DNA of 64,000 nt from Rhodopseudomonas julia (GTDB lineage Bacteria > Pseudomonadota > Alphaproteobacteria > Rhizobiales > Afifellaceae): the NCBI RefSeq assembly GCF_030813515.1, contig NZ_JAUSUK010000001.1, positions 496,001 through 560,000 on the forward strand, read 5' to 3'. Position 1 is the stretch's first letter; each line of letters opens with the position of its first letter. Both the position numbers and the translations under genes were made by a program. The notes under the pieces are model-generated. The model saw only the letters and a program-made list of their open reading frames with translations, was not told the DNA's origin and searched no databases. This document shows positions 13,730-30,366 of the stretch, piece by piece.

Positions 13730-15100
13730 TCACCTGGGCGATAATGCCGTGATCGGCGCAGTCTCCGAACTCTCCGACGCATCCTTGAGAACGATCAGAT
13801 CGACGCGGTCGGATAGGCCTGCAACCTGCCGATTTCTGCGGGGTTCAAGGCGATGTGGCGGCACAAAGCCCTGGCGCTTGGCGAGCTTGAGCGTCGCCCT
13901 GGTCGTTAGGCCAGCCGTCCCCTCGACACGATTGGTATCTTCCAGCTTGGCCGCAAGATTGACCGGGACACCGATGACGGTGTGTTCAAGCCGGTCAGCG
14001 CCGCCGACAACCCCGACGAGAGCCGGGCCGGCAGCAACCGCACAACCGACCCGCAAGTGAAGAGCACGCCCCTCCCCCTGCATCTCCTCATTCAACATGT
14101 CGATCGCGTCATAGACGCCGAACGCGGCGTGAAGCGCATCCGCCGCGCAGGACGGAGAGGCTTCGACCGCGCCGAAGGTCGCCAGAATGCCGTCACCCAG
14201 GTACTTGTCGATATGGCCGTTGAAGCGAGCAATGACAGTTGCCATCGCATTCTGGTAGCCAGTCAGAAGCGCCATCACGTCGGAGGGCGGCAATGCTTCC
14301 GCCATGGCCGTGAAACCCCGAATATCGATGAAGAGCGCAGCGATGTCGCGTGTTGTCGCTACGCCCGAGACGAGTTCCGCTGGCTCCTGTTCACCGACAT
14401 TGCGGGCAATCTCAGGCGCAAAGAAGCGAGAAAGGTTGCCGGCAATCACGTGGTCGCGAACGGCCGAGACAAGAAGTGCACGCGAGCGCATCAAGACATA
14501 GGCGAGAAGGAAGGTGGTGGCGGAGATGACGATGATCTTGTCGAGCTCGGCCCCCACGAGAACCTTCGAGCCATTCGTGTATTCCACGTAATTGCGGGTG
14601 ATACCGGCAAAATCCGGGTCGAAGAAGATCGCATAGACAACGAGCGAAACCCAGCTCACCACCGCGAGCGCACCGGTCAGAATGAGAAAACTCGGATCAA
14701 AGCGCAGGGCGCGCAATGCGATAAAGAGAAAGAAATAGAGCGCTGTCGGCGACTTAAGAACGAAGGCCGCAGGCTCGTCGTATTGGACGTGATACGAAAA
14801 GATGATTGCCGTCAGGAGCGCCACGTCAAAGACGATAGAGGCGACGATCAGCGAAGTTCCGAGACGACGCCGGTAAGCCAAACCTAGCCGGAGGACCGTG
14901 AAGACAGCATAGCCCCCAAGAGCGTATGGCACAAAGTTGAAGCCTGCAGATCCTTCCGCGCGCGGCAGAAAAGCATAAGCGGAACCAAAGAAGATGATGA
15001 GGGCCAGCTGCGCCCAACCGATGCGGATCTCGGCACGCTCATCAAGCTCGTCGATCCGGCGTTTCAGGGCGGGCGGGAGCGCCTTCATTGTTCGGTTCAT
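13730..15100 (-). CDS. Membrane class III adenylate/guanylate cyclase
   Basis: A 456-residue protein with about six transmembrane segments in residues 30-220, then a class III catalytic domain. Metal-binding Asp residues lie in FIDIRGF (about residue 253) and YLGDGIL (about residue 300); the Lys just before YLGDG and the Thr of HTVIG are the substrate-selecting pair typical of bacterial ATP-using (IIIb) cyclases. The motif VNLAAKLE (about residue 380) has the conserved Asn, but the transition-state Arg four residues on is Lys. The product should be cAMP if active. The gene overlaps the upstream MBL-hydrolase gene by 4 bp and is the last gene of an eight-gene operon that also encodes a cNMP-binding protein. 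Confidence 0.9.
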   Translation of the reverse strand: MNRTMKALPPALKRRIDELDERAEIRIGWAQLALIIFFGSAYAFLPRAEGSAGFNFVPYALGGYAVFTVLRLGLAYRRRLGTSLIVASIVFDVALLTAIIFSYHVQYDEPAAFVLKSPTALYFFLFIALRALRFDPSFLILTGALAVVSWVSLVVYAIFFDPDFAGITRNYVEYTNGSKVLVGAELDKIIVISATTFLLAYVLMRSRALLVSAVRDHVIAGNLSRFFAPEIARNVGEQEPAELVSGVATTRDIAALFIDIRGFTAMAEALPPSDVMALLTGYQNAMATVIARFNGHIDKYLGDGILATFGAVEASPSCAADALHAAFGVYDAIDMLNEEMQGEGRALHLRVGCAVAAGPALVGVVGGADRLEHTVIGVPVNLAAKLEDTNRVEGTAGLTTRATLKLAKRQGFVPPHRLEPRRNRQVAGLSDRVDLIVLKDASESSETAPITALSPR

Positions 15101-15951
15101 GAAACCGGCGCCATCACCTCACCGGCATGGAGCACCATGCCCTCGCAGGCAAATTCGGCAACAGGACACACGTTCCGCATCCGGTTGCGAAGGAGGTCAA
15201 GGGAATCGTCCGAGCGCTCTGGATGATGATGGAACATGACAGGCCTGGAGACACCAGCCCGGCGTGCAAGCGCTACCCCCTCCTCCCAGGTGGAATGGCC
15301 CCAGCCGACGTGTTCTCGGTACTCCGCTGCCGTGTAAGTGGCATCGTAGACCATGATATCGGAGCCACGGACGAAACGCTCCACGGCCTTGTCGATGTTT
15401 TGGTCGCCGTGCTCGTGATCGGTAATGATGGAGATCGAAGAGCCGCGATAGTCAAAGCGGTAACCCAGCGCGCCGCCCGGATGATTGAGACATTCAGTGC
15501 TCACACGCAGGCCATCAGCGAAGACCAATTCCTCTCCAACGCTCAGATCATGAAAGGCGCAGTCGCGGAAGACCACCGGCTGAACAGGAAAGAGCACAGG
15601 ATCCATCAAGCGCTCGAAAATGTCGCGGAGTTTGATGTCCGCCAAGAGATGGCCGGCGGCGAAACGGACCTCGAAATTTTCACAGTATGCCGGCCTGAAG
15701 AACGGCAAGCCGCAAATGTGGTCGAGATGGGTGTGGGTGAAAAGAACTGTCGCCCGACGCCTTCCCTCTTTCAGAAAGGCTTCGCCGAGATCGTGCACAC
15801 CGCTCCCACAATCGACCACAAGGCTTTGTTCGCCCGCCTTGATCTCCATGCAGGACGTGTTGCCGCCATAGCGCACGGTCTTTGCGCCGGGCACGACGTA
15901 AGATCCCCGCACGCCCCAAAAACGGATCGAAAGTCCCGTATGGTTTTCCAT
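15097..15951 (-). CDS. Metallo-beta-lactamase-fold hydrolase, possible cyclic-nucleotide phosphodiesterase
   Basis: A 284-residue MBL-fold protein. It has the N-terminal FWGVRGSY...GGNTSC signature of the RNase Z/PhnP-like group, the metal motif THTHLDH (about residue 93), NHPGGALGYRF (about residue 157), ITDHEHGD (about residue 177) and a final HHHPERSDD (about residue 242). These supply the usual two-metal site. Related folds include phosphodiesterases acting on cyclic phosphates. Position between a nucleotide cyclase and a cyclic-nucleotide-binding protein suggests it may break down the cyclic nucleotide signal, but this is inference from context. Translationally coupled to the cyclase gene (ATGA overlap); it starts one base after the end of the cNMP-binding gene. 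Confidence 0.83.
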   Translation of the reverse strand: MENHTGLSIRFWGVRGSYVVPGAKTVRYGGNTSCMEIKAGEQSLVVDCGSGVHDLGEAFLKEGRRRATVLFTHTHLDHICGLPFFRPAYCENFEVRFAAGHLLADIKLRDIFERLMDPVLFPVQPVVFRDCAFHDLSVGEELVFADGLRVSTECLNHPGGALGYRFDYRGSSISIITDHEHGDQNIDKAVERFVRGSDIMVYDATYTAAEYREHVGWGHSTWEEGVALARRAGVSRPVMFHHHPERSDDSLDLLRNRMRNVCPVAEFACEGMVLHAGEVMAPVS

Positions 15952-15952
15952 C

Positions 15953-16417
15953 TCACACCGTTTCGCCTGCCAGCCGCCCCCTCAGCTCTGCGAGATCCTG
16001 CGTCGTGCGCTCCAGGCGATGGGCGAGAACGCGCATGATATCGAATGCCACGTCGGGAAATTCCCGCAGCAAAGAGAACATCTGATCGCGCGACAGCGCC
16101 AGCGCCTCGGTCGTGTGCGTTGCGACGACCGTCGCGGTGCGCGGCACTTCGAACAAGACGGCAATCTCGCCGACGATATCGGTGCTGCCGAGCTCGGCAA
16201 TTTTTTTCCGCCCCTGTCCGGTATCGACAAGCACATCACAATCGCCGGACAAGATGATGAAGGCGGTGTCGCCCTCCTCACCCTGCCGACACAAAACCTC
16301 TCCGGGATGGAAGACCACGCGCTCGCTGATGAAAGCGAGGAGCTTCAATTTGGCGACATCGACGTTGGCGAAAATCGGTACCCGCGAAAGAGCCCTGACC
16401 TCCTCGTCCATGCTCAT
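15953..16417 (-). CDS. Stand-alone cyclic-nucleotide-binding domain protein
   Basis: A 154-residue protein that is essentially one CAP_ED domain: EEVRALSRVPIFANV, HPGEVLCRQGEEGDTAFIIL (about residues 37-56), and the phosphate-binding cassette DIVGEIAVLFEVPRTATVVA (about residues 79-98), whose GE...RTA residues contact cyclic nucleotide. There is no DNA-binding helix-turn-helix; the C-terminal helix (MRVLAHRLERTTQDL) ends the protein. It therefore acts by protein contact rather than as a CRP-type regulator. I chose the ATG at 16417, which follows gaggaa and the end of the ABC gene; the longer frame overlaps that gene. Partner candidates are the ABC protein upstream and the cyclase downstream. 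Confidence 0.85.
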   Translation of the reverse strand: MSMDEEVRALSRVPIFANVDVAKLKLLAFISERVVFHPGEVLCRQGEEGDTAFIILSGDCDVLVDTGQGRKKIAELGSTDIVGEIAVLFEVPRTATVVATHTTEALALSRDQMFSLLREFPDVAFDIMRVLAHRLERTTQDLAELRGRLAGETV

Positions 16418-16433: not shown

Positions 16434-19175
16434 TCATTCGGCAGCGACTGCGTCCGGATCGTCTTCGTTCCGGGTCGCACCTGAGCGAGACTGCGACGGC
16501 GGCCGCTCATCCGCAAGAATTGCGCCACCACGCAAGCTAAGGCAATGATCGAATTGATTTAAGAGAGAAGCTCCTGTCATTCCGACGACCACAGTGCGGC
16601 CTTCCATCATCTGCAGAAGCTTGCCCAGGCGAGCATCTTCGCCCTCCTCTCCGTTGCCCTTGAAAAGGTCGTCGACGATGAGAACCTCCGGGCGGCGCAT
16701 GAGGCCGCGCAGCAAGCCGATCTTGATACGCTGCAGGGAAGACAGACGCGATCCTCCAATACCGACCCGGAAATCAAGCCCTGCCCGCAAAATGAGGGGA
16801 CGGAGTTCAAAACGCTCGACAGCGTCGGCGATAACGGCTTCGGCCTGTTCGCGACTCTTCCTGCGATCGGCGCGCAGGTGACCGAAGAGGAGGTTCTGCT
16901 CCACCGTCAGAGCCTCGTCGAAGGATTCGCGCGAGAAGAAATGAAAGGCACCGGGCGCTTTGCGCCGAAGCGCTCTCATGAGTTCGGGGCGGGCAGTGAC
17001 AACGCGAGCCTCAATCTCCGGGGTAACGATACCTAGTCGATGCTTGGCAGGGACGAGTTGCAGTGCGTAACCCAATAGACGAGCCCGGTCGCGCGGCTTC
17101 AAGCGCCCGCTCCCATCTTTGGCACGCCGCAGAACCGAAGCGACCTCCGGCAATTCGTCCATCGGAATGAATGAGTAATTCGCCAGAGCATCGCTCTGTC
17201 CGCTGACATTGGAAAAGAGCTCGACCATGGCGGCAGCGAGATCACGGCCCGCACTTACCAAGACGTCCTCGAGTCCTGCTTCCCTTACAGCCTCGCGGAA
17301 GGCTGGCACGTCAGCCAGCTCGCGAGTCGTCACGTCAGAATCGCGCGGCACGCCGAAAATCAGATTTTCGGCCAAGGTGGCGCTACGGTTGAAGCTGTCT
17401 TCTGCCCAAAACTCGACGAAATCCGTCTTCGTCCCGCCCGCCCTGACTTTTTCCGCGATCATATTGCGGGCAGAAAGAATGCGCTGCCGCGCCTCCTCGC
17501 CAAGCACCGCCGGTAGACGAGCCTGGAGGCCGAGGCGATAGACCTCGTCGCTCATACCAAAGGCTTCGATGTTTTCGATGATGCGCTGGTCGAGTTCTTC
17601 CACCGAACCGACCCCCGCCTCAGCAAGGTCTTCCCAAGAGCTCAGATACTCATAGGACGCATTACCGGTGAGTTCTGCTTCGGCGAGGCGGGCTCTCAGC
17701 AAGGCCTCATCGACGCCATCGGACGGCGCGATCGGGCGATGCAGGAGCCCATAGACCAAATTGAAGCGGATCGTCTCGTTGAGGATGTAAGGATGGGCCG
17801 AGGCATAGGCGACGCGCCGGCCGAGCACGGATTGAGGAAGCGTCTCAAGGTTGTATCCGCCGATCTCGATGCGTCCCGAGGTGGGTGACAAGAGGCCCGC
17901 CATCATCATCAAAAGCTGGGTGCGACCGCTCGCTTCGGAGCCGAGCACGGCGAGCTTTTCACCAAGCGGAATTTCCGCCGACACGTCGTTCACCTCCTGC
18001 CCGGCCCCCTCGCCCGAATAAGAGACGTGGGTGAGAACGAGGCTCTGCACACCTGAAAAGTCGAGTTCCGGATCGGCGTGCAGGCGCTCTACCGGATATA
18101 GATCGGGCGGATCGAACTGCTCCACGACGGCGACATACTTCACCTGCGTATCGGCGAAGCTCTGATAATAGTCGAGAAGCTCCTTCCAGGGTGAGGCCAG
18201 GTCCTTGTAAGCGGCGAGAACGGCGACAAGCGCGCCAAAGGAAATCTGGCCCTTGATCACCAGATAACCGCCGACAGAATAGAAAAAGAACGGCGTGATC
18301 TGATTCATCAAATTGTTGATGAACTTGATCATGAACTTCCGCTTGAATATCTCGTAACGGATCTCGAAATTTCTCTGAAGCCGATTGGTGAATTCGGCAA
18401 GATGATAGGCGGCCGTATTGTTGGCGTGGATATCGCGAATGCCGGCAATCGAGGCGCCGACATCCTCCGAAAGTTCGCGCAGATTGCGCACACGCTCGCG
18501 TGCCAACATGTTCACACGCTTCTGCAGGCGCGGAATGAGCCAGCCCTGAAACGGGTAGAGCGAGACGGCAGCCGCGCCGAGGAGCGGATCCTGCATAAAG
18601 ATGAAGAAGAGATAGACGAGGAGCGTGCCGCCCTGAAAAATCGGCACGGCGATGGCATCCGCAATGAAGCCGCCGAGCGGCTGCACCTCCGACGCGATCA
18701 TGGCGATGATCTCACCCGACGAAGCGCGCGAAAAATGCGGCAGGCGGAAGCGCAGGACGCGCTCGAAAAGCTGATAGCGCAGGCGTCTCAAGGTGCGTTC
18801 GCCAGCAAGCCCCTTGTAGACGTTCATCACGTATTTGACGACGCCGTTGAGCCCCACAGCAAAGAGAAAGCCAAGGGAGAGAAGGATCAGATATTCGATC
18901 TGATCAAATTCGAAACCGAATAGCGTCCTTGGAAAATCTTTGCCGCCGATCGCCTGATTGACGATCATTTTGGGCAGTTCGAGCGTGACGTAGAGGATCG
19001 GAAACGAGACGAGCGTGATCGCTAAAATGACGAGCTGCTGACGTCTGGAGTAGCGCCAGATATAGCGAAAGAAATTGCGGTCGAGCCCACCATCCCGCGC
19101 GGGTCTCTCCGGCTTTGCCGCGTCCGGCCCAGGGCTATTTGTATGGGTCCGCCGCATCGCGCAAACCATCTCCAA
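16434..19175 (-). CDS. Large ABC-exporter-like protein with a degenerate, expanded nucleotide-binding domain
   Basis: A protein of about 913 residues. Residues 35-370 form a type I exporter transmembrane domain (about six helices; LYVTLELPKMIVNQAI, GERTLRRLRYQLFERVLRF). The ATPase domain is abnormal: Walker A reads GSEASGRT (about residue 410; Lys replaced by Arg), the signature is LSSLQ instead of LSGGQ, and Walker B is LIVDD with Asp where the catalytic Glu should be. Between the two halves of this domain lies an insertion of about 300 residues containing two more ENLxFG-like segments. ATP hydrolysis is therefore doubtful. The start is uncertain (TTG 19175, ATG 19169 or 19157), overlapping the upstream permease gene by 23-41 bp. 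Confidence 0.82.
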   Translation of the reverse strand: MEMVCAMRRTHTNSPGPDAAKPERPARDGGLDRNFFRYIWRYSRRQQLVILAITLVSFPILYVTLELPKMIVNQAIGGKDFPRTLFGFEFDQIEYLILLSLGFLFAVGLNGVVKYVMNVYKGLAGERTLRRLRYQLFERVLRFRLPHFSRASSGEIIAMIASEVQPLGGFIADAIAVPIFQGGTLLVYLFFIFMQDPLLGAAAVSLYPFQGWLIPRLQKRVNMLARERVRNLRELSEDVGASIAGIRDIHANNTAAYHLAEFTNRLQRNFEIRYEIFKRKFMIKFINNLMNQITPFFFYSVGGYLVIKGQISFGALVAVLAAYKDLASPWKELLDYYQSFADTQVKYVAVVEQFDPPDLYPVERLHADPELDFSGVQSLVLTHVSYSGEGAGQEVNDVSAEIPLGEKLAVLGSEASGRTQLLMMMAGLLSPTSGRIEIGGYNLETLPQSVLGRRVAYASAHPYILNETIRFNLVYGLLHRPIAPSDGVDEALLRARLAEAELTGNASYEYLSSWEDLAEAGVGSVEELDQRIIENIEAFGMSDEVYRLGLQARLPAVLGEEARQRILSARNMIAEKVRAGGTKTDFVEFWAEDSFNRSATLAENLIFGVPRDSDVTTRELADVPAFREAVREAGLEDVLVSAGRDLAAAMVELFSNVSGQSDALANYSFIPMDELPEVASVLRRAKDGSGRLKPRDRARLLGYALQLVPAKHRLGIVTPEIEARVVTARPELMRALRRKAPGAFHFFSRESFDEALTVEQNLLFGHLRADRRKSREQAEAVIADAVERFELRPLILRAGLDFRVGIGGSRLSSLQRIKIGLLRGLMRRPEVLIVDDLFKGNGEEGEDARLGKLLQMMEGRTVVVGMTGASLLNQFDHCLSLRGGAILADERPPSQSRSGATRNEDDPDAVAAE

Positions 19176-20310
19176 AGAAGGAGAATGCTAGCACGACGAT
19201 GATCACCGGCACTACAGGCGCTACGAGCCAGGGATAAACGGTGATGATTGTCACGGACTGCGCCTCGTTGAGCATCACACCCCAGGAGATGATCGGGCGT
19301 CTCAGACCGAGGTTGAGGAAGGAGAGCGCCGTCTCGCCCAAAATCATCGACGGGATCGACAAAGTGGCGCTGGCGATCAAATGGCTCATGAAGCCGGGCA
19401 CGAGATGGCGGCCGATGACGCGGGTGGGGGATGCCCCCATTAATACAGCCGCCTTCGCATATTCCTCTTCACGCAACGCCAGAAGCTTGGAGCGCACCGC
19501 ACGCGCCAAGCCGGGCCAATCAAGAAGCCCCAGAATGATGGTGATGCCGAAATAGATGAAGATCGGGCTCCAGGTGACGGGGAGCGCCGCGGAGAGTGCC
19601 ATCCACAACGGAAGCTCCGGCAGGGAGCGAAGAATCTCGATCACGCGCTGTGCCACTGCATCGACCCAGCCGCCGAAATAACCGGCCGCTCCGCCGATGA
19701 CGACGCCGAAGAGCATGGAGATGGCAACGCCGACGAGGCCGACGGTCAGTGAGATGCGAGCGCCATAGACAAGACCTGAGAAGACGTCGCGCCCGAGCCG
19801 GTCGGTGCCTGCAAGAAACAGCGTTCCACCCACAGGCGGGCAGACGAGATGAAAGCGCGCCTGAAACAGGCCCCAGAAACGATACGGCTCGCCCCGACAG
19901 AAGAAGCGCAAGCTCTGTCTCTCCTGTGTGCCGGACGTGTAGTCCCAGCGTAGTCGATCGAGGTCGACCTTGGCGACGTAAGGATGGACATACGGTCCGA
20001 TGAACCTTCCGTCGCCGAAGAGATGTACGCTCTGGGGCGGAGCATAGAGATAGTCGATGTGTCGCTCGTTGGGCGCATAAGGCGCGATTACCTCTGCAAA
20101 CGGCACCGTCAGATAGAAGAGAAAGAGAACAAAGCTCGCGAGGACGGCGAGCCGGTGACGGCGGAACTTCCACCACATGATACGGGCTGCGGAGGCGGCA
20201 TAAAAGCGCTCCTGTTCGGGCGTCAACACTTCATCTGTCGCCGGATCGAAAGGCGCCTGATCGACGTAGCGAGGAAAGACTTCCTCCCCGGAGGATGGCG
20301 GCTTTTTCAT
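19135..20310 (-). CDS. ABC importer permease, DppC/OppC type
   Basis: A 391-residue inner-membrane permease of the peptide/opine/nickel family. A cytoplasmic N-terminal region and first membrane segment are followed by an unusually long periplasmic part (about residues 60-170) and then the five-helix permease core with the EAA-type loop EEEYAKAAVLMGASPTRVIGR (about residue 287). It ends GDGLRDAADPYK, the standard C-terminus of DppC-like proteins. It pairs with the DppB-like product encoded just upstream (4-bp overlap), and the following ABC-exporter-like gene starts inside its 3' end. Confidence 0.88.
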   Translation of the reverse strand: MKKPPSSGEEVFPRYVDQAPFDPATDEVLTPEQERFYAASAARIMWWKFRRHRLAVLASFVLFLFYLTVPFAEVIAPYAPNERHIDYLYAPPQSVHLFGDGRFIGPYVHPYVAKVDLDRLRWDYTSGTQERQSLRFFCRGEPYRFWGLFQARFHLVCPPVGGTLFLAGTDRLGRDVFSGLVYGARISLTVGLVGVAISMLFGVVIGGAAGYFGGWVDAVAQRVIEILRSLPELPLWMALSAALPVTWSPIFIYFGITIILGLLDWPGLARAVRSKLLALREEEYAKAAVLMGASPTRVIGRHLVPGFMSHLIASATLSIPSMILGETALSFLNLGLRRPIISWGVMLNEAQSVTIITVYPWLVAPVVPVIIVVLAFSFFGDGLRDAADPYK

Positions 20311-21332
20311 TTGCGGGCAGCCCCACCAAGCCGGATCCTGGGATCCAGTACGGCCAGCAGAAGGTCGGAAACGAGCATGCCGATCAAGGTGAGAATGGCG
20401 ACGAAGAGGAGGATAAAGCCTGCCAGGAACTGGTCCTGAGACTGCAGCGCATCAAGAAGGATCGGCCCGACAGTGGGCAAATTGAGCACCACTGAGACGA
20501 TCACCGAGCCGGAAACGAGCGATGGAATGAGATTTCCAATATCGGCGACAAAGGGGTTGAGCGCCATCCTGAGCGGGTATTTCGCCACAAGACGCTCCTC
20601 CGAGAGGCCCTTGGCGCGAGCGGTCTGGACATATTGCTTGTCGAGCTCGTCGAGGAGGTTCGCCCTCAGGCGTCGGATCATGCCGGCGGTTCCGGCCGTA
20701 CCGATGACGATCGTCGGCGCGATGAGATGCGACAGCAGCGAACCGATCTTGGCGAGAGACCAGGGCGCGTCGACATAGACGGGGTCCATTAGACCGCCGA
20801 TCGACATGTCGAACCAAACGTTGAAATAGTAGAGAAGAACGAGGCCCAAAAGGAAGTTCGGCGTGGCGAGTCCGATATATCCAAGGAAGGTGAAAAAATA
20901 ATCTCCAAAGGAGTACTGCTTCATGGCCGAATAAACGCCAATTGGAAGCGACACCGCATAGACGAAGAGGATCGTCGCAAAATTCAGAATGACGGTTAGC
21001 GGCAGAGCCGGGCCGATCACCGTCTCAACCGGTGAATTATACTCAAACGACCAACCCCAATCACCCTGCAGAAGACCGGAGAAGCCGGAAGGGCCTGGCC
21101 AAAGGCCGATCCAAATGAAATAGCGCTCGAGAAATGGACGATCGAGCGCGAATTCGGTTCTGAGGAAGGCAATCTTGTCCGCACTAGCCCCCTCCCCGGC
21201 GGCGCGCAAGGCTGCGATCTGATTGGTGAGGTAGTCGCCCGGCGGCAGCTCAATGATCAAGAAGATTAAAAACGAAATGACGAACAGTGTCGGGATCATA
21301 CCGAGGAGGCGACGGAGCATATACCGCAGCAT
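20307..21332 (-). CDS. ABC importer permease, DppB/OppB type
   Basis: A 341-residue permease. The N-terminus MLRYMLRRLLGMIPTLFVIS is the classic first helix of DppB-like proteins; the C-terminal half carries the EAA loop (KQYVQTARAKGLSEERLV, about residue 234) and ends DLLLAVLDPRIRLG. It contains a long periplasmic stretch after helix 1, again in the style of larger-substrate importers. It lies 33 bp after the binding-protein gene and overlaps the DppC-like gene by 4 bp. Confidence 0.9.
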   Translation of the reverse strand: MLRYMLRRLLGMIPTLFVISFLIFLIIELPPGDYLTNQIAALRAAGEGASADKIAFLRTEFALDRPFLERYFIWIGLWPGPSGFSGLLQGDWGWSFEYNSPVETVIGPALPLTVILNFATILFVYAVSLPIGVYSAMKQYSFGDYFFTFLGYIGLATPNFLLGLVLLYYFNVWFDMSIGGLMDPVYVDAPWSLAKIGSLLSHLIAPTIVIGTAGTAGMIRRLRANLLDELDKQYVQTARAKGLSEERLVAKYPLRMALNPFVADIGNLIPSLVSGSVIVSVVLNLPTVGPILLDALQSQDQFLAGFILLFVAILTLIGMLVSDLLLAVLDPRIRLGGAARK

Positions 21333-21365: not shown

Positions 21366-23324
21366 TCAATCGCCTGACGCAAGGCTTTTCGTCCTGCCGA
21401 AGATGGGCGCATCCACAATCCTCGGCTTGTCGTCAAACCAGAACGCATCCATGCGGTGTAGACCGAACTGGGCGCCAGGGTCCCAGCCATAGATACCGGC
21501 AGGCGGTACATTCCGCAGATAATTGGACCGTACGACAGGCTGAAAAACATCGGAGACAATACCGATGGAAAATGTCTCCGCGGCATGGATCTCCAGGATC
21601 TGCCGCCAGATCGCCTGCCGTTCCTGCAGCGTCACCGTGTGCTGCCAGGCTTCATAGAGTTGCAGGAGGTCATTCGCAGGCGGATAGTCGACTGGCTCTC
21701 CCTTGCTGCCACGGTGCGCATAATACTCGCCCCAAGCCGGCCAGATGAAGCTCTCGTAGGAGACCGGCGCAAAATCGTCGGGCGGCATGTCGGCCGTCGG
21801 GATCCCGTTGTCGAAGCCGGCATCGGCAATCATCTGGACGAGCCCGGCATTGGCCCTACGACGGATATTGTCGCGCTCTGACGGCTTGATGACGAGATCG
21901 ACGCCGATCTCGCGCCATGTCTCGCGAATGAGTTCCAGAGCATCGACGATCTCCGGGTTCTCTCCCGCCGTTTCCACGATGATCTGAAGGGGCCGTCCGT
22001 CTGTCATCATGCGGATGCCATCGCCTCGCCGTTCCGTGAGCCCGATATCATCCAGGAGAGCTTCCGCCCGCTTGGCCTCGTACTCGGTCCAGGCACTGCG
22101 GTAGGGCGGCCGAAAGAGCGGGCTCAGCGGTGTCACCGAATTGTTGGAAGGCTCGGCGAGGCCGAAGAAAAGAACACGATTGATGAGCTCACGGTCGATT
22201 CCGAGCGAAAGCGCATGGCGGAAGCGGACATCGCGAAAGAGTTTTCGCCAGGCTTTGTCTTCGACATTGAGATTTGGATAGAGCGCGATCCGCGCGGCTC
22301 GGGCATCAGGCCAAAACAACGTTTGATAACGACGCTCCTGCTCTCCATCTTTCAACACGGTAATGTCTGAAAAACTCAGGCCGCGCGCCTGCAAATCCGT
22401 TTCGCCCGCATGCACCTTGGCAGCGACGAGGCGGGCATCGGCGACATCCATCACGATGCGGTCGATATAGGGAAGCTGGCGTCCGTTGCGATCAATGCGG
22501 TGATAGTAGGGATTGCGGACGAGAATGAAGCGGCGCCCCGAGCTGGGTTGGACGACCCAGGGCTGCAAGGTCGGCATCCCGGCATGTTCGTTGCCGTACA
22601 TGTCGTCCATGAGATTGTGTTCGGCCGCCCAACTTCTTTTGCGGTCGCGCGCCATCTCGCGCTTGATAAAAGCCTTATCTCCGTAGCGCTCATGCCACTT
22701 CTTCAAAAAGTGCGCCGGACGATAAATGAAGGGCGGCCGCGCCTTGGCGAGGTTCTGCAGAAAGCCGGGATTGGGGCCATCCCAGGAATAACGCACCGTA
22801 AGCGGGTCCAACACCTCAAAGCGCGGTCCCTTGCCATCGACCAGGAGAAAGCTCGGAAGCCCCGTCGGCATCAGCTCCGGATCGGATGCGATATCCTCGA
22901 AATAATAGCGGAAGTCTTCGGCCGTGAACGGATGCCCGTCGGACCATTTGTGCCCCTTCCTGAGATGGAAGGTGAAGACACGATCCCCTTCGATATCGAC
23001 GGACTTCAGGATGTCCGGCACCAGGTTCAGGTTTCGATCGAAGATGACGAGACGGGCATAACCCCAGACATTGGCCAACCGCACATCCTTGGAACGCGTG
23101 ATGATCGTCCTGAGATCGCCGCCATGACGACCAGGCCCGCCACCTTCCGGAAAATCATCGTAAACGAGCGGATCGTCGGGCACGCGATCTTGGATCGGCG
23201 GCAGCTTCGCCGGGTCATGCGTGTTTCCCAAGGTCTCCGTCTCGACCAAAGGAGGCTGTGCGCGAGCCGGCACCTCAGGAGCTAGGGCAAAAACAAAGGC
23301 CAGGAAAAGAACAAGGGCGCGCAT
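21366..23324 (-). CDS. ABC importer substrate-binding protein, family 5
   Basis: A 652-residue periplasmic binding protein of the peptide/nickel/oligosaccharide class (SBP_bac_5). A signal peptide (MRALVLFLAFVFALAPEVPARA) is followed by the family core: VFTFHLRKGHKWSDGHPFTAEDFRYY split around residues 117-142, and FRHALSLGIDRELIN (about residue 373). It is longer than ordinary DppA-type proteins (about 530), like those binding bulky oligosaccharides or peptides. It overlaps the ATPase gene by one base and precedes the permeases. The ligand cannot be read from sequence; the neighbouring glycan cluster makes an oligosaccharide plausible. Confidence 0.88.
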   Translation of the reverse strand: MRALVLFLAFVFALAPEVPARAQPPLVETETLGNTHDPAKLPPIQDRVPDDPLVYDDFPEGGGPGRHGGDLRTIITRSKDVRLANVWGYARLVIFDRNLNLVPDILKSVDIEGDRVFTFHLRKGHKWSDGHPFTAEDFRYYFEDIASDPELMPTGLPSFLLVDGKGPRFEVLDPLTVRYSWDGPNPGFLQNLAKARPPFIYRPAHFLKKWHERYGDKAFIKREMARDRKRSWAAEHNLMDDMYGNEHAGMPTLQPWVVQPSSGRRFILVRNPYYHRIDRNGRQLPYIDRIVMDVADARLVAAKVHAGETDLQARGLSFSDITVLKDGEQERRYQTLFWPDARAARIALYPNLNVEDKAWRKLFRDVRFRHALSLGIDRELINRVLFFGLAEPSNNSVTPLSPLFRPPYRSAWTEYEAKRAEALLDDIGLTERRGDGIRMMTDGRPLQIIVETAGENPEIVDALELIRETWREIGVDLVIKPSERDNIRRRANAGLVQMIADAGFDNGIPTADMPPDDFAPVSYESFIWPAWGEYYAHRGSKGEPVDYPPANDLLQLYEAWQHTVTLQERQAIWRQILEIHAAETFSIGIVSDVFQPVVRSNYLRNVPPAGIYGWDPGAQFGLHRMDAFWFDDKPRIVDAPIFGRTKSLASGD

Positions 23325-25279
23325 CAGGCGGCCTTATCGCGAAGTTCAGGGAGGCAGACGAGATGGCCTGGCGCGACCTCGCGCAGGCGTGGCTCCATGT
23401 CGGGGAGAAGCCTGTACGGTTCCGGCCAATACGACGGCTCGCTCGCCCCGCTCTCCACCAGCGCAGAGAAATCGAGCTTCTGGTCGAGGCTCGGCGTCGG
23501 AATCGCCTTCAAAAGCGCCTGCGTATAGGGATGACGAGCATCCTCGACGATCGCCTTCTTGTCGGCGACCTCCACGACGCGGCCGGCACACATGACCGCG
23601 ACCCGATCGGCGATATAATCGACAACAGCGAGATTATGACTGACAAACAGGAAAGTGAGGCCGAGCTCGGTCTTCAGATCTTTAAGAAGATTGAGGATCT
23701 GAGCCTGCACCGAGACGTCGAGCGCGGAGACAGGCTCATCACAAAGGAGAAATTCCGGGGATAGTGCCAGTGCTCGGGCAATGCCGATCCGTTGGCGCTG
23801 CCCCCCGGAAAAGGAATGCGGATAGCGCCGGAGATGGCTGACGCTCAGCCCGACCATGCGCACTAGCTCCTTCACCCGCTCATATCGCTCGGCCGTCGTA
23901 CCGATGCCATGGATGACAAGTGGCTCTGTCAGGATCTCGCGCACCGTCATGCGCGGGCTGAGTGAGGAAAAGGGATCCTGGAAGATGATCTGCACCTTGC
24001 GGCGGAAGGCAAAGCGTTCCTCTTTCGAGAGATGTGCCAGATCGCGCATCTCGCCACCGAGGCGGTAAAGCACGTGCCCTTCGTCAGGTGTTTCGGCACC
24101 CAGGACGAGCTTCGCCGTGGTTGTCTTGCCCGAGCCGGACTGGCCGACGAGACCGAGACATTCACCACATTTCACCGTCAGATCAAGCCGATCCACAGCC
24201 CGCACCGTGCGGGTCAGCACGTCTCCCATCTTGCGGAGCCGATAAACCTTGCTGAGCTTGCGCAATTCGAGCAGCGCCTCGGAGCCATCATGCACCTCGA
24301 TCTGCCGAGAGGGCCGCTGCAGAAACGCGGCCGGCTGGGCCTCGATCGGGCGGATGGGCTGGAGGCGTTCTTCCGGTCCCATGTCGAAGCGGGGAACTGC
24401 TCGCAGAAGCGAACGCAAATAAGGATGCGCTGGTGCACGGAAGATCGTCTCGCTCGTACCCGTTTCCATGATACGGCCGCGATAGATCACCGCCACATAG
24501 TCGGCGATATTGGCAACGACGCCAAAATCATGCGTGATCAGAAGGACCGCCATGTCGAGTTCGGCCTGCACCTTGCAGATGAGGTTCAAAACCTCGGCCT
24601 GAATGGTGACGTCGAGCGCGGTCGTGGGTTCATCGGCGATGAGAAGGGCCGGACGGCACATCAGCGCCATGGCGATAACAGCGCGTTGGCGGAGCCCTCC
24701 CGACAGCTCGAAAGGATACGCCGACAATGCCCGTTTCGGATCCGGAAAACGAACGAGTCCCAGCATTTCGGCCGACAGGGCTCGCGCTTCCGCCCGGCTG
24801 GCACCACGATGCAAACGCACCACTTCACCCAGCTGATCGCCGATCGTGTGAAGTGGCGAAAGCGCCGTCATCGGCTCCTGGAAAATGATGGAGATACGAT
24901 CGCCCCGGATCGCTCGCATCTTCGGACCGCGCGGGTCCTTGGCCGCAAGATCCAGACTGACGCCGTCGCGGGGGTCGGTGAAAACGATCCGCCCACCCGC
25001 GATACGGCCCTTTTGCGGCAGAATTCCCAGAATCGCCTGCGAGATCACGGTCTTTCCGGAGCCGGATTCCCCGACAAGAGCGACCGTGGAGCCGGCGGGC
25101 ACTTTGAGAGAGACCCCATTGACGGCGCACGTACGGCCTTCGTCCCCGGCGAACTCAACAATGAGATCGGCGATCTCGAGGACCGGACGGGGAGCGGCAT
25201 CGAGACGTAACGACGGAGAGTGAGGAGCCTTAACATCGTCCACGGTTCGCAGCTTGGCGGAGCCCTCAATGGCAGGCAA
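23324..25279 (-). CDS. Fused double ATPase of the peptide-type ABC importer
   Basis: A 651-residue protein with two complete nucleotide-binding domains (DppD-DppF fusion, as in GsiA). Domain 1: Walker A GESGSGKT (about residue 73), signature LSGGLRQR (about residue 193), Walker B LLIADEP. Domain 2: GQSGSGKTT (about residue 377), FSGGQRQR (about residue 491), FLLCDEP. All catalytic residues are present in both, in contrast to the degraded domain encoded at 16434-19175. It is the first gene of the eight-gene minus-strand operon and drives the importer formed with the downstream binding protein and permeases. The first 25 residues are not conserved, so a start inside the frame is possible. Confidence 0.9.
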   Translation of the reverse strand: MPAIEGSAKLRTVDDVKAPHSPSLRLDAAPRPVLEIADLIVEFAGDEGRTCAVNGVSLKVPAGSTVALVGESGSGKTVISQAILGILPQKGRIAGGRIVFTDPRDGVSLDLAAKDPRGPKMRAIRGDRISIIFQEPMTALSPLHTIGDQLGEVVRLHRGASRAEARALSAEMLGLVRFPDPKRALSAYPFELSGGLRQRAVIAMALMCRPALLIADEPTTALDVTIQAEVLNLICKVQAELDMAVLLITHDFGVVANIADYVAVIYRGRIMETGTSETIFRAPAHPYLRSLLRAVPRFDMGPEERLQPIRPIEAQPAAFLQRPSRQIEVHDGSEALLELRKLSKVYRLRKMGDVLTRTVRAVDRLDLTVKCGECLGLVGQSGSGKTTTAKLVLGAETPDEGHVLYRLGGEMRDLAHLSKEERFAFRRKVQIIFQDPFSSLSPRMTVREILTEPLVIHGIGTTAERYERVKELVRMVGLSVSHLRRYPHSFSGGQRQRIGIARALALSPEFLLCDEPVSALDVSVQAQILNLLKDLKTELGLTFLFVSHNLAVVDYIADRVAVMCAGRVVEVADKKAIVEDARHPYTQALLKAIPTPSLDQKLDFSALVESGASEPSYWPEPYRLLPDMEPRLREVAPGHLVCLPELRDKAA

Positions 25280-25665
25280 GCGGTTTCGCTGCCCTTCAAT
25301 ACGCTTGCGAAAGGACTCGTGAGAAGAAACGGAACACTGGCGGCAGCCGCGGGGAGGAAAACCGACATGAAACGGATCGAGCGGAAGGCGGCGTTCCCGG
25401 CCTGGAAGAGAAATTGCCGTGCATGAGGATTGCCGCAGAGAGCCGATAGGGCTAGGTCCCCCACCTCGTCTCGTCGGCGGCTATCTTAAACCGGTGCTGC
25501 TTTTCCCTTGCTATGGGTAGCCAATGAAGGCTTCAAAGCGCAGGGGCAATCGGCCCTTTCTCCCCTCTCTTGTTGGACAAGAACGGGCGCGTTACCTTCC
25601 GCTGGGGCAAGTTGGTGCTTGGGGAATGGTCATGCCCTTTCGTGTACGGCGGGCTCAGCAGTGGC
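25280..25665. other. Divergent intergenic region between the importer/cyclase operon and the glycan operon
   Basis: About 390 bp separating two divergent operons. It must hold promoters for both, but I see no well-matched promoter pair, inverted repeat or small gene. A frame from 25570 runs into the glycosyltransferase but lacks family similarity before 25666. Confidence 0.4.
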
Positions 25666-26862
25666 ATGACACAGAAATCACGCGTCCTTATCTATAGCCA
25701 CGATACGTTCGGGCTGGGTCACCTCAGGCGATGCCAGGGGCTCGCCGAAGCGATCGTGGAAAATTTCGACCACGCATCGGTGATGATCCTGTCCGGATCA
25801 CCAATCATCGGCAGCTTTGAGTACCGCTCACGCGTCGACTTCGTTCGCGTTCCGGGGGTCATCAAACTCAGGAACGGCGAGTACACCTCACTCAATCCCA
25901 AGATCGACATCGACGAGACGTTGTCGCTGCGCTCCTCGATCATCGAGCACACAGCCTCGATCTATAAGCCGGACATCTTCATCGTCGACAAGGAGCCCTA
26001 TGGTCTGAGAGGCGAAGTGCGCCCGACGCTGTCTCTCCTGAAAAAGCAGGGAACGCGCCTCGTTCTCGGCCTTCGCGACGTGCTCGACGATCAGGAGATT
26101 CTCGCCCAAGAATGGGCGCGCAAGGATTCCTACCGTGCGCTTAGCGACCTTTACGATGATATATGGGTCTATGGGCTGCCCTCCATCTACGATCCGCTCG
26201 CCGGACTGCCGATCAGTGATGCGGTCCGAGACAAAATCGTCTTCACGGGTTATCTGCGGCGACAGCTGCCGAGATTCGATCCGAACCATCCCCAGCCTTT
26301 CGACGGCGACCCCTTCATCCTCGTCACCCCAGGCGGCGGAGCGGACGGCATTGAGCTCGTCGATTGGGTGCTGCGCGCCTATGAGGCGCAAGAGCGGCCT
26401 CTCTTTCCGGCCCTGATCGTGCTCGGACCTTTCATGGCGCATAATGATCAGCTGGCGTTTTTCGAGCGGGCGCAATCGTTGCGCAATGTCAAGACGATGC
26501 GGTTTACGCCCCAGCTCGAACCCCTCATCAACGACGCCGTCGCTCTCGTCGGCATGGGCGGCTACAACACGTTTTGCGAGGCCCTTTCCTTCGACAAGCC
26601 AACGCTACTCATTCCGCGGGTCGTGCCCCGACGGGAACAGGCTATCCGCGCCGAACAGGCGGAGAAGCTCGGCCTGTGCACGCATCTGCCGATCGACGAT
26701 TACCCGGATGTCAGCGCCATCACCGAGGCGCTTGCGGAGCTGCCGGACCAGCCCTTGCCGTCGCAGCATTTCGTCCCGGGCCTTCTCGACGGATGGGAGA
26801 CGATCCGAGAATTGCTGGCACCCTTTCTGGAAACCCCTGCCCTCAAGCGTAGCTTGCCGTGA
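25666..26862 (+). CDS. Glycosyltransferase, COG4671/MurG-like GT-B fold
   Basis: A 398-residue predicted glycosyltransferase. The N-terminus RVLIYSHDTFGLGHLRRCQ is the hallmark of the COG4671 group; the C-terminal half has the donor-binding GGGADGIELVDW (about residue 222) and VGMGGYNTFCEALSF (about residue 295), as in family 28/MurG-like enzymes. No signal peptide or membrane helix is seen, so it acts at the cytoplasmic face. The ATG at 25666 fits the family start although its ribosome site is weak. It is the first gene of a six-gene operon and is followed after 23 bp by another glycosyltransferase. Confidence 0.82.
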   Translation: MTQKSRVLIYSHDTFGLGHLRRCQGLAEAIVENFDHASVMILSGSPIIGSFEYRSRVDFVRVPGVIKLRNGEYTSLNPKIDIDETLSLRSSIIEHTASIYKPDIFIVDKEPYGLRGEVRPTLSLLKKQGTRLVLGLRDVLDDQEILAQEWARKDSYRALSDLYDDIWVYGLPSIYDPLAGLPISDAVRDKIVFTGYLRRQLPRFDPNHPQPFDGDPFILVTPGGGADGIELVDWVLRAYEAQERPLFPALIVLGPFMAHNDQLAFFERAQSLRNVKTMRFTPQLEPLINDAVALVGMGGYNTFCEALSFDKPTLLIPRVVPRREQAIRAEQAEKLGLCTHLPIDDYPDVSAITEALAELPDQPLPSQHFVPGLLDGWETIRELLAPFLETPALKRSLP

Positions 26863-26885: not shown

Positions 26886-28139
26886 ATGCGCGTTGCAACG
26901 ATCCTCAAGGGCTATCCACGCCTGTCTGAAACCTTCATCGCCCAGGAGATCCGGGGACTGGAGCAGCGCGGCATCGCGCAGCGCATCGTCTCGCTGCGCC
27001 ATCCGACCGATCCCTACGAGCACGACGTCCACCGCGAGATCGATGCGGAACGCTATTATCTGCCCGAATATCTGAAGGACGATCCGCCGCGTGTCTCGCG
27101 AGCCCGGCGGAACGTGGAGAGGCTTCCGGGTTTTGAGGTGGCGAAAGCAGCCTTCACGAGGGATTTTGCCCGCGACCCCACGGCCAACCGGCAGCGCCGC
27201 TTCGGCCAGGCGGCTGTCCTTGCCGCAGAAATGCCGGAAGATATCGGCTGGATGCACTGCCACTTCCTGCACACGCCGGCATCCGTCGTGCACTATGCGA
27301 GCCTTATGACAGGCATCGGTTGGTCGTTTTCAGCCCATGCCAAGGATATCTGGACAACACCGCCGCAAGAGCTCACCGACAAACTTGCAAGCGCCGCTTG
27401 GGGCGTCACCTGCACCAGGACGAACCTCGATTACCTTCAAAGTCTGACGGGCGATCCGGATAAGATAGAACTCGTCTATCACGGTCTTGATTTCTCCCGC
27501 TTTCCCAAGGAGCCGCGGCCTGAGCGCTCCGAAGACAGCCCTTTCACGCTCATCACGGTCGGTCGAGCCGTCGAAAAGAAAGGCTTCGACGATCTTCTCA
27601 CAGCGCTGGCACGTCTTCCCGACGAGGCGCGCTGGCGACTCGTTCATATCGGCGGCGGAGCGCTGATTTCGTCCCTCAAGGCACAAGCCGAAAGGCTGAG
27701 GCTTTCAGAGCGTATCGAGTTTCGTGGGCCGCAGCCAAGAACCGCCGTGCTTGCTACCTTAGAAGAAGCCGATCTTTTCGTCCTGCCGTCGCGCGTGACA
27801 GCCGATGGCGACCGCGACGGCCTGCCGAACGTTCTTCTGGAGGCGGCAGCCTTCGCCTTGCCGATGATCGCAACGCGCGTCTCGGCGATTCCCGAATTCA
27901 TCGAGGATGGCGTCAGCGGCCGGCTCGTGGAGCAACGGGACACGGAAGCACTTGCTGCTGCGATCGCGACTTTGATGGGCGACAGAAATCTCCGACGCCA
28001 CCTCGGCCTTGCCGCCTTTCGCCGTGCGCATGCGGATTTCAAGGCTGCACCCGGCATCGACAGGGTGGCGGCGATGCTGCGCTGTTCCTTGGCAGGAGAT
28101 CAGCCGATCCGCGAAAGATGCGCCGCGAGCGTCGGATGA
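26886..28139 (+). CDS. Glycosyltransferase family 4 (WaaG/ExoL-like)
   Basis: A 417-residue GT-B enzyme. The acceptor domain begins MRVATILKGYPRLSETFIAQE, the signature of exopolysaccharide GT4 enzymes. The donor domain has VGRAVEKKGFDDLLTAL (about residue 226) and the E-x7-E type motif with DGLPNVLLEAAAFALPMIAT (about residue 315). It should transfer a sugar from a nucleotide donor to a lipid-linked glycan. The stop overlaps the next gene's ATG (ATGA), so translation is coupled. Confidence 0.86.
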   Translation: MRVATILKGYPRLSETFIAQEIRGLEQRGIAQRIVSLRHPTDPYEHDVHREIDAERYYLPEYLKDDPPRVSRARRNVERLPGFEVAKAAFTRDFARDPTANRQRRFGQAAVLAAEMPEDIGWMHCHFLHTPASVVHYASLMTGIGWSFSAHAKDIWTTPPQELTDKLASAAWGVTCTRTNLDYLQSLTGDPDKIELVYHGLDFSRFPKEPRPERSEDSPFTLITVGRAVEKKGFDDLLTALARLPDEARWRLVHIGGGALISSLKAQAERLRLSERIEFRGPQPRTAVLATLEEADLFVLPSRVTADGDRDGLPNVLLEAAAFALPMIATRVSAIPEFIEDGVSGRLVEQRDTEALAAAIATLMGDRNLRRHLGLAAFRRAHADFKAAPGIDRVAAMLRCSLAGDQPIRERCAASVG

Positions 28140-29224
28140 AGATCGCCTTTTACGCGCCGATGAAGCCTCCGGACCATCCCGTTATGTCCGGCGACCGAAC
28201 CTTCGCCCGCGCCATTCTTGCCGCTCTCGAGGCTCTCGGCCATGAGGTCGAGGTGGTTTCGCGCTTCCGCAGCTGGTGCCGAGCTCCCGCAGAACAGGTC
28301 GCGCTTGCGCAAGCTGCAGAGGCGGAACGGGAGGCGGTGCGTGCGCGGCTCGAAGCCGCGCCCCCGGATCTCTGGCTCACCTATCATCTTTATCACAAGG
28401 CACCGGATTGGCTCGGGCCTGCGATCAGCGCCGAGCTCGGCATCCCCTATGTTGTGATCGAGGCGAGTTTTGCCGAAAAGCAGCGTTCCGGCCGTTGGCG
28501 TGAGGGAGCCGCAGCCGCAGAAGCAGCCCTTGCGAAAGCCAGCATGGTGGCGGCGATCCAATCAGAAGACCTATGCGGACTTCGCAAAACCGTGCCGCAG
28601 GCGCGGCTCACACATCTAACGCCCTTCATGGAGCTTGGCTCCTTTCTGCGCACCGAAAGCAATCGGGATTCCGGGCCCCTCCGGCTCCTTTCTGTCGGCA
28701 TGATGCGCGCAGGCAGCAAAGCCTCCACCTACCAGGCTCTGGCAAAAGCACTGGCGGCATGGGGGGAGACGCAGTGGACGTTGACCGTTGCGGGAGACGG
28801 GCCGGAGCGGTCTGCACTCGAACCGCTCTTTGCCGCAGACAAGACGCGCTTCATCGGAGCGGTCCCGCCGGACGCGATGCCCGCTCTTTACGCGGCGGCC
28901 GATATTTTCGTGTGGCCCGCGCTCAAGGAACCACTCGGCTTCGTGTTCCTGGAAGCCATGGCGAGCGGCCTTCCGATAATCGGGGGACGCGGCGGCGGCG
29001 TACCGGATCTCGTGCAAGACGGGGTAAACGGCTTGCTCGTTGAGCCGCAAGAGCCACAGAGCGTAAGCGCAGCCCTTTCCCGGCTCGGCGATCCGCAGTT
29101 ACGGGTGCGGATGGGGGCGGCGGGCCGGCAGATCGCAGCCGAAAAGCACAGCCTCGAAGCGGGCATGAAGGGATTGGCCGCGCTCATCGAACGCGCCTTC
29201 ACGACACCCCGAGGAGAGGACTGA
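28136..29224 (+). CDS. Glycosyltransferase family 4 protein
   Basis: A 362-residue GT-B glycosyltransferase. It begins MKIAFYAPMKPPDHPVMSGD and has a donor-domain core VGMMRAGSKASTYQAL (about residue 187), DGPERSALEPL (about residue 221), and LKEPLGFVFLEAMASGLPIIG (about residue 262) with the two conserved Glu of GT4. The start is the ATG at 28136, overlapping the previous stop; a six-codon longer version exists. It is followed by a one-base TGATG overlap with the next gene. Sugar and linkage are not predictable. Confidence 0.84.
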   Translation: MKIAFYAPMKPPDHPVMSGDRTFARAILAALEALGHEVEVVSRFRSWCRAPAEQVALAQAAEAEREAVRARLEAAPPDLWLTYHLYHKAPDWLGPAISAELGIPYVVIEASFAEKQRSGRWREGAAAAEAALAKASMVAAIQSEDLCGLRKTVPQARLTHLTPFMELGSFLRTESNRDSGPLRLLSVGMMRAGSKASTYQALAKALAAWGETQWTLTVAGDGPERSALEPLFAADKTRFIGAVPPDAMPALYAAADIFVWPALKEPLGFVFLEAMASGLPIIGGRGGGVPDLVQDGVNGLLVEPQEPQSVSAALSRLGDPQLRVRMGAAGRQIAAEKHSLEAGMKGLAALIERAFTTPRGED

Positions 29225-30366
29225 TGCGGGCGCTGATCTGGGTTCAGCATCTTCTGGGCGTCGGCCATGCCGTACGCGCCGGTGCGATTGCGCGCGCGCT
29301 TTGTGAAGAAAGTGCCGCCGTCACCCTCGCGACGGGGGCATCTTTGCCGGGCTCGGTCGATACACAGGGCTTCGATGTCATCAGATTGCCGGCCGCGCGG
29401 GCCTCTGACCCGGCCTTCAGCGCCATTATCGATGAAGATGGCGGGGAGGTGGACGATGCCTTCTGGCAACGGCGGCGCGACATCCTTCTCGCGCTCATCG
29501 ACGTGGTTGATCCCGATATCGTGGTGACGGAGGCGTTCCCGCTGGCAAGGCGAGCTTTTCGGGCAGAGCTCGTCCCGTTTCTTCAGAAGTTGCGGGCAAA
29601 GCCCCGGCAACCCTTCATCGCTGCGTCGGTGCGCGACATCCTGGTGCGTAAGCCGCCCGACAAAGAAAGGGCGATGGCCGATCTCGCCCTCGCCTATTAC
29701 GACAAGATCCTGATCCATTCAGATCCGCAGCTCGTCCGGCTGGAGCATAGTTTCGGGGAAGCGGAAAGGCTCGCTCCGCTCGTCACTTACACGGGGTTTG
29801 TCAATTCGAGCTCCAACGTGCCCGCACCGTCAGGCGCTGGCGAAGGCGAGGTGATCGTCTCATGCGGAGGTGGGGCGGTTGGACGTGCCATCCTGCAGGC
29901 CGCGCTTTCGGCGCGCCTGCATAGCTCCAATGCAGGGACGTGCCTTTGGCGGGTGCTCGCCGGCCCCCATTTAAGTCCTGAAGATTTTGCCGCCCTTACG
30001 AAGGCTGCCCCGCCGGGCGTTATCGTGGAGCGAGCACGGCGTGACTTTCCAGACCTTCTGACACGTGCGCGGCTGTCGGTGAGCCAGGCCGGCTACAACA
30101 CTGCCGTCGACATCTTGCAGGCCAGAGTGCCGGCGCTCCTCGTACCCTTCGCGGCAGGATCCGAGACTGAGCAAACACAACGCGCTGACTTATTTGCCGG
30201 GCATGGGCTTGCCGTAGCCTTGCCAGAGAAAACCCTATCGGCGGAGACCCTTGCCAGGGCCGCGGACGAGGCGATGCAGCTTAAGCCAAAAGCTGTCGAG
30301 TTTTCGTTGGATGGCGCAAAAAAAACCGCCAAGCTTTTGATCGCGGCGGCGAAAAGAGGATCGTGA
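29224..30366 (+). CDS. Glycosyltransferase, family 28 C-terminal type
   Basis: A 380-residue predicted glycosyltransferase related to the first gene of this operon: MRALIWVQHLLGVGHAVRAG matches the GLGHLRR-type N-terminus, and SQAGYNTAVDILQARVPALLVPF (split near residues 281-303) matches the GGYNT donor-binding loop of MurG-like enzymes. SCGGGAVGR (about residue 217) is the Gly-rich hinge. The operon thus has two COG4671-like and two GT4-like enzymes, enough for a repeat unit of several sugars. It is linked by one-base TGATG overlaps on both sides. Confidence 0.8.
   Translation: MRALIWVQHLLGVGHAVRAGAIARALCEESAAVTLATGASLPGSVDTQGFDVIRLPAARASDPAFSAIIDEDGGEVDDAFWQRRRDILLALIDVVDPDIVVTEAFPLARRAFRAELVPFLQKLRAKPRQPFIAASVRDILVRKPPDKERAMADLALAYYDKILIHSDPQLVRLEHSFGEAERLAPLVTYTGFVNSSSNVPAPSGAGEGEVIVSCGGGAVGRAILQAALSARLHSSNAGTCLWRVLAGPHLSPEDFAALTKAAPPGVIVERARRDFPDLLTRARLSVSQAGYNTAVDILQARVPALLVPFAAGSETEQTQRADLFAGHGLAVALPEKTLSAETLARAADEAMQLKPKAVEFSLDGAKKTAKLLIAAAKRGS

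Follow-up and report, generated by a model that had tools for sequence, protein, structure and literature searches.

The window analysed here is a 64,000-nucleotide stretch of the Rhodopseudomonas julia genome (contig NZ_JAUSUK010000001.1, positions 496,001 to 560,000). On its minus strand, a gene at 16434-19175 encodes an exporter-fold ABC protein with a degenerate and expanded NBD. The reading frame has 913 codons when counted from TTG 19175, with ATG 19169 or ATG 19157 the more likely start. It is followed on the same strand by a gene for a stand-alone cyclic-nucleotide-binding (cNMP) domain protein (15953-16417; PF00027, E=4e-20), the reading frame of which is open from 16531 with a likely start at ATG 16417, and within which the phosphate-binding cassette reads GEIAVLFEVPRTATVVA. 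Two more minus-strand genes come next, for a metallo-beta-lactamase-fold hydrolase of the RNase Z / cyclic-nucleotide phosphodiesterase-like kind (15097-15951) and a class III adenylate/guanylate cyclase (13730-15100; PF00211). On the other side of the ABC gene lie the genes of an Opp-type importer, also on the minus strand: permease C (19135-20310), permease B (20307-21332), a family 5 solute-binding protein (21366-23324) and a fused OppD-OppF type ATPase with two ABC_tran stretches (23324-25279). Divergent from this operon, a set of plus-strand genes encodes a GT28-like glycosyltransferase that is a conserved neighbour (GT28a, 25570-26862), two GT4 glycosyltransferases (GT4a, 26886-28139, and GT4b, 28118-29224), a second GT28-like enzyme (GT28b, 29224-30366) and a protein (30363-31145) without a Pfam match, whose Azospirillum B510 homologue is annotated as a polysaccharide deacetylase. 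The window also holds a polysaccharide lyase gene (PF14099, 32241-33200), and a homologue of the lyase adjoins the Opp genes of the same locus on the S. meliloti plasmid pSymB (L124, 1970-3049).

The ABC protein has a six-helix membrane domain and an NBD on one chain, both recognized above the Pfam gathering cut-offs. The membrane domain is of the type IV exporter kind (residues 30-360, window positions 18096-19088; PF00664, E=4e-21) and is the best-conserved part of the family. Pfam recognition of the NBD is limited to the first 80 positions of the PF00005 profile, which correspond to the N-terminal NBD core (residues 378-476, 17748-18044). Profile matches of the whole protein include MsbA, HepA and P-glycoprotein. 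An AlphaFold model built with 58 sequences has a mean pLDDT of 87.3 and a pTM of 0.84, and its structure matches span residues 25-906 (VIA-align). Among the library models searched (Pfam, NCBIfam), none covers the full architecture: Pfam accounts for the membrane domain and half of the NBD, and no NCBIfam equivalog matched at its cut-off.

The preliminary description of this gene, made from the sequence alone, proposed that the ATPase site had decayed, and the motifs it quoted are exact: GSEASGRT in place of Walker A (residues 412-419, 17919-17942), LSSLQ as the signature (811-815) and LIVDD as Walker B (832-836). It had overlooked further losses, placed by alignment, of the Q-loop Gln (Ala460) and the H-loop His (Thr867, in the C-terminal NBD part at 16506-16667). 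None of the five elements of a functional exporter, i.e. Walker A, Q-loop, LSGGQ, the Walker B Glu and the H-loop, is therefore canonical in the window protein (0/5). Some of the changes are conservative, namely Walker A Lys to Arg418 and the catalytic Glu to Asp836, and G412, G417, T419 and D835 are retained.

Across the family, the decay is nearly general and uneven. The Walker A motif GK[ST] was absent from all 58 sequences of a set below 85% identity, and we initially took no member to have an intact P-loop; this was dropped when five were found among 120 non-redundant members. In this larger set, LSGG[QE] occurs in none, GxxxxGK[ST] in five, DE in Walker B in five, and His at the H-loop position in 24. 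P-loop and DE occur together in three members (L157, L158 and L178), of which L178 keeps the P-loop, an LSGAQ signature, DE and the H-loop His. In L157 (2351-5749) and L158 (2403-5693), a cNMP domain is also fused to the chain, and the first of the repeated units described below contains acidic low-complexity extensions. The Walker A columns vary even between relatives in the family alignment. Since the five P-loop members are dispersed over the tree, such that at least four changes are required, the P-loop was probably lost repeatedly, although regain is possible. Thus "decayed" describes nearly the whole family; it fails for the few relatives that keep P-loop and DE and have the same triplication. 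The triplication accordingly also occurs in forms that might bind ATP, and some members may bind it, judging from the motifs of L178, L157 and L158 and from the four residues retained in the window protein.

The second claim of the preliminary description, an insertion of about 300 residues between Walker A and the signature, agrees with a comparison to six ordinary exporters encoded in this genome: the two motifs are 399 residues apart in the window protein versus 104-109 in the exporters, which leaves ~290-295 extra residues. The three similar motifs quoted from this region are likewise exact (LNETIRFNLVYG at 465-476, LAENLIFGVPRD at 601-612 and VEQNLLFGHLRAD at 758-770), and each belongs to a longer unit. 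Unit 1 (residues 448-583, 17427-17834) comprises the Q-loop strand, LNETIRFNLVYG and an extra helical segment up to a long helix with the invariant R570. Unit 2 (584-742, 16950-17426) is an extra copy, running from FNRSATLAENLIFG through a long helix with the invariant R729, and unit 3 (743-836, 16668-16949) runs from LTVEQNLLFG to the degenerate signature and Walker B. Profiles of residues 448-586, 583-745 and 741-850 were taken from the family alignment and set against one another: the match of unit 2 to unit 3 had E=2e-13 (61 columns) and that of unit 1 to unit 3 had E=4.5e-6 (62 columns), whereas 30 column shufflings of unit 2 gave no E below 0.047 against unit 3. On these profiles, the similarity of the repeats is greater than expected by chance. 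Against the NBDs of ordinary exporters, unit 3 matched from the Q-loop to Walker B (E=1e-22) and is the canonical copy, and unit 1, which begins with the canonical Q-loop, matched the Q-loop region (E=8e-9). Unit 2 reached only E=0.001 directly, and its link to the NBDs goes via unit 3.

In the predicted structure, the same order of elements appears three times across the NBD, each unit consisting of a short ENLLFG helix, a short strand, several helices, one long helix and a strand. The long helices lie at 550-573, 713-733 and 807-820 in model numbering, i.e. the window protein numbering minus 6. The whole predicted NBD superimposes on the ComA NBD with Z 24.7 (233 of 239 residues, rmsd 2.8). 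The insert, folded separately as residues 476-750, gave a pLDDT of 88.7; Foldseek with this isolated insert returned nothing under E=0.44, and with a second aligner the nine top chains were all ABC NBDs from MRP1 and CFTR, aligned over the helical subdomain at weak Z (4.3-4.9) and an rmsd mostly of ~3. For the extra unit by itself, this predicted-structure evidence is modest; it agrees with the sequence result. Taken together, profile comparison, predicted structure and the match of the insert to NBDs indicate that the extra part most likely represents two further Q-loop/helical-subdomain units, in line with the earlier suggestion of an ABC domain partly triplicated in its middle. R570, R729, N604 and N761 are invariant in all 120 members, and R823 and N472 are kept in 118 and 115 of them, so that the anchors of the extra units are better conserved than the ATPase motifs.

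Scans for the family gave 79 loci in named genomes, and 9 of 11 genomes of the same taxonomic family carry a member. At a threshold of E<=1e-110, matches were found in 129 of the 385 alphaproteobacterial genomes sampled, nearly all of them full length, and a phylum-wide sample gave 27 matching genomes out of 398, all listed as the same order or class. In PLSDB, 331 plasmid records match, mostly from Rhizobium and Sinorhizobium, and are annotated as ordinary ABC transporters. A 999-residue frame with a partial ABC_tran match on C2, considered as a second paralogue in the same genome, is UvrA. Against Afifella marina, dN/dS was 0.04 for the whole protein, 0.03 for the membrane domain and 0.04 for the insert. 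The preliminary description held that a local pseudogene would be indicated by homologues lacking the insertion and having intact Walker motifs; among the homologues examined, none was seen that lacks the insertion yet retains the NBD, and a local pseudogene is ruled out by the dN/dS values and by the widespread family. The pattern of conservation is inverted. Pairwise identity within the family falls from 0.53 in the membrane domain to 0.34 in the canonical parts of the NBD and 0.31 in the insert, and the membrane domain is more identical than the NBD in all 1540 pairs; a control set of 29 sequences, centred on one of the ordinary exporters of this genome, gave 0.54 for the membrane domain and 0.65 for the NBD. 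This is as expected if ATP hydrolysis has ceased to constrain the NBD while membrane function still constrains the membrane domain.

Among 80 loci, 33 carry the cNMP domain as a C-terminal extension of the ABC protein; Azospirillum and Sulfitobacter have such fused forms. In another 40, a gene for the domain follows immediately downstream; 38 of these were assigned by rule, and in the other two, L064 and L079, the domain is encoded in an overlapping ORF. Hence 73 of the 80 have the domain on the chain or genetically linked, as would a cyclic-nucleotide-regulated transporter. The seven loci where no cNMP domain was found nearby are all from Gammaproteobacteria. Repeated fusions need not be invoked: in a tree built without L157 and L158, the fused forms group on one side together with Oceanospirillaceae that have no domain, and the loss in the latter falls inside the clade. 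In the downstream protein of the window, Pfam found no DNA-binding domain. The stand-alone proteins have the canonical phosphate-binding cassette GEIAxLxxxPRTAT, and the fused domains keep its Gly-Glu/Asp and its Arg, most of them differing at the residue after the Arg. Because of this difference, and since the cNMP-fold domain of HetC has ppGpp rather than cAMP as its ligand (PMC10986499), it is not certain that the ligand is a cyclic nucleotide. The metallo-hydrolase, which bears a weak resemblance to cyclic-nucleotide phosphodiesterases, is adjacent in Afifella, Pannonibacter, Rhodobium and relatives, and the locus also includes a cyclase gene in the window, several relatives and R. etli.

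The wider neighbourhood also recurs. At the 69 loci with at least 3 kb of upstream flank, ORF-level BLAST, as distinct from curated gene calls, detected homologues of GT28a in 39, of GT4a in 32, of the OppD-OppF ATPase in 29 and of the solute-binding protein in 22. R. etli p42e, Azospirillum B510 (in the fused form) and pSymB of S. meliloti 1021 all carry the Opp importer and the glycosyltransferases together with the ABC and cNMP proteins; the ABC protein of R. etli CFN42 p42e, a typical member, is WP_011427893.1. Glycosyltransferases are absent from the Rhodobacteraceae loci, so that a glycan substrate could not be universal. The solute-binding protein is large and is linked to the locus in distant genera, and its ligand might be a glycan rather than a peptide. 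In S. meliloti 1021, the ABC gene (L124, 13926-16692) is broken by a frameshift, and strain Rm41 has one uninterrupted match; strain 1021 may thus lack the function of the ABC protein. SMb20804 and SMb20805, reported as capsule (KPS) genes, and SMb20813, reported as an msbA homologue, may belong near this S. meliloti locus.

Homologues also exist in which the NBD is missing altogether. Afifella IM 167 and A. pfennigii each have a second homologue of ~480 codons that terminates after the membrane domain (L100, 7597-9036, and L101, 7395-8861); no copper gene was found near either, and the L101 copy adjoins an open frame resembling xylulokinase. Other NBD-less homologues, ~40-45% identical, are found in copper-resistance loci on Phaeobacter plasmids and in other genomes, next to genes for a multicopper oxidase, a cupredoxin, CopB or a cytochrome c (L160, 5001-6200; L161, 5543-6817; L125, 9800-11104), one of them on a conjugative Phaeobacter plasmid. 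In these copper-linked proteins, which are possibly a new membrane protein family, the cytoplasmic loop between TM4 and TM5, which carries a coupling helix in exporters, is shortened. The membrane domain thus persists in homologues that have no NBD at all.

In comparison with known systems, the family shares with type IV ABC exporters such as MsbA, HepA, TM287/288 and PglK a PF00664 membrane domain followed by an NBD, and differs from them in the lost ATPase motifs, the ~295 extra residues that make two more helical-subdomain units, and the cNMP partner. We therefore place it in the type IV exporter fold and not in that functional class, as the defining ATPase motifs are degenerate. SbmA/BacA-like proteins (SLiPTs) have an exporter-fold membrane domain that operates without ATP, as we propose here, and NBD-less forms occur in the window family as well. 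However, SLiPTs are NBD-less and proton-driven (PMC13316013), whereas the full-length members of the window family keep an NBD remnant and have a membrane domain that matches PF00664 rather than the SbmA/BacA model; the window protein is thus not a member of that group, which is defined by the absence of an NBD and of coupling helices and by a conserved glutamate ladder. HetC-type exporters resemble the fused members in having an exporter-fold ABC protein and a cNMP-fold domain on the same chain, but the HetC domain is N-terminal, beside a C39 peptidase, and an ATPase residue is needed (PMC10986499), while in the window family the domain is C-terminal or separate and the ATPase degenerate. CFTR (ABCC7) and SUR are cases of an ABC exporter fold with a degenerate site that has become a channel or a regulator, and the helical subdomain of CFTR NBD1 resembles unit 2 at weak Z. 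CFTR has one working ATP site and is ATP-gated; in the window family, by contrast, neither site would be intact if the protein is a homodimer, as presumed. The open literature, searched with incomplete coverage, yielded nothing that describes this ABC family, COG4671 together with ABC transporters, or an Azospirillum system of cNMP protein and glycosyltransferases. We consider the family to be probably undescribed and unnamed, and its current annotation, "ABC transporter ATP-binding protein", to be probably wrong for most members.

The reading that we prefer, with a probability of about 0.45, is that the family has become uncoupled from ATP hydrolysis, that the NBD remnant serves a cyclic-nucleotide sensor as a platform for docking and regulation, and that the substrate is probably a glycan. 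The repeated Q-loop/helical-subdomain unit is the part that meets the coupling helices in ordinary exporters. In such a mechanism, the NBD remnant would act as a clamp and docking platform, with the extra units providing the docking, and a cyclic or related nucleotide, bound by the partner domain, would replace ATP sandwiching and change the packing of the NBD remnants. The altered packing would set the state of the membrane domain, which would then move or release its substrate without ATP, either passively or by an ion gradient, as in SbmA, a proton-driven protein that has lost the NBD and coupling helices and offers a precedent for an ATP-independent exporter fold (PMC13316013). In the main clade, the substrate would most likely be a glycan, lipid-linked or free, that the neighbouring glycosyltransferases produce. 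The regulated switch rather than a pump suggested earlier is likewise no more than inferred. A more far-reaching version, in which cyclic-nucleotide control has replaced the ATP motor and the cNMP domain gates an ATP-independent exporter-fold protein through the threefold helical subdomain, as a bacterial route from an ABC pump to a ligand-gated carrier or channel, is rather doubtful.

An explanation that would keep ATP hydrolysis in the system, and that we regard as improbable, is that the protein is the degenerate half of a heterodimeric exporter: it would contribute the site without catalysis, and hydrolysis would fall to an ordinary half-transporter whose gene lies elsewhere. Exporters are commonly heterodimers of this kind, with one of the two sites degenerate (PMC7756269), and the best structural Z matches include subunits of TM287/288, MsRv1273c/72c and TmrAB, although all exporters score alike. 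A partner half-exporter with a canonical Walker B would usually be found in the same operon, but in 79 of the 80 loci the flanking 10 kb contain no ordinary half-exporter, the sole exception being a 21% match at L064; a partner may be encoded farther away. Moreover, a degenerate partner normally retains its Walker A and the signature that serves the other site; in the window family, the changes reach Walker A, Q-loop, signature and H-loop alike, and a triplicated helical part is not known from degenerate partners. It could also be argued that the protein still hydrolyses ATP with divergent motifs and is controlled through the cNMP domain, much as HetC is through its N-terminal one. HetC is an ABC exporter in which the cNMP-fold domain binds ppGpp and an ATPase residue is required (PMC10986499). 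The few members that retain P-loop and DE, together with the conservative changes to Arg418 and Asp836 in the window protein, are consistent with this idea. However, the signature glycines, the Q-loop Gln and the catalytic Glu are gone in almost all members, the Walker A columns are variable, and the constraint on the NBD is relaxed relative to the membrane domain, all of which makes continued hydrolysis hard to credit.

The loss of the ATPase motifs and the expansion of the cytoplasmic part would also fit a protein that transports nothing at all and acts as a scaffold or signal transducer, which either connects cyclic-nucleotide signalling with a membrane-bound state or brings the glycosyltransferases together at the membrane. 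The linkage of the glycosyltransferases and of the cNMP domain would be accommodated as well, and SUR is a precedent for an ABC protein turned regulator. Transport is nevertheless a better fit to two observations: the membrane domain shows the strongest conservation, at a dN/dS of 0.03-0.07, and it alone survives in the copper loci, without glycosyltransferases, cNMP domain or NBD. A purely scaffolding role is thus unlikely in our estimation, and uncoupling from ATP hydrolysis with the NBD kept as a regulatory platform remains the reading we favour.

ABC transporters are defined by their ATP motor, and a family in which this motor has decayed is present in about one third of the sampled alphaproteobacterial genomes, including those of the model rhizobia R. 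etli and S. meliloti. With the membrane domain kept, the motor decayed and the piece that couples motor to membrane multiplied, the family would be a natural experiment on the role of the NBD without ATP. Its near-intact, decayed and NBD-less forms offer intermediates for studying how a primary pump becomes a secondary transporter, a channel or a regulator.
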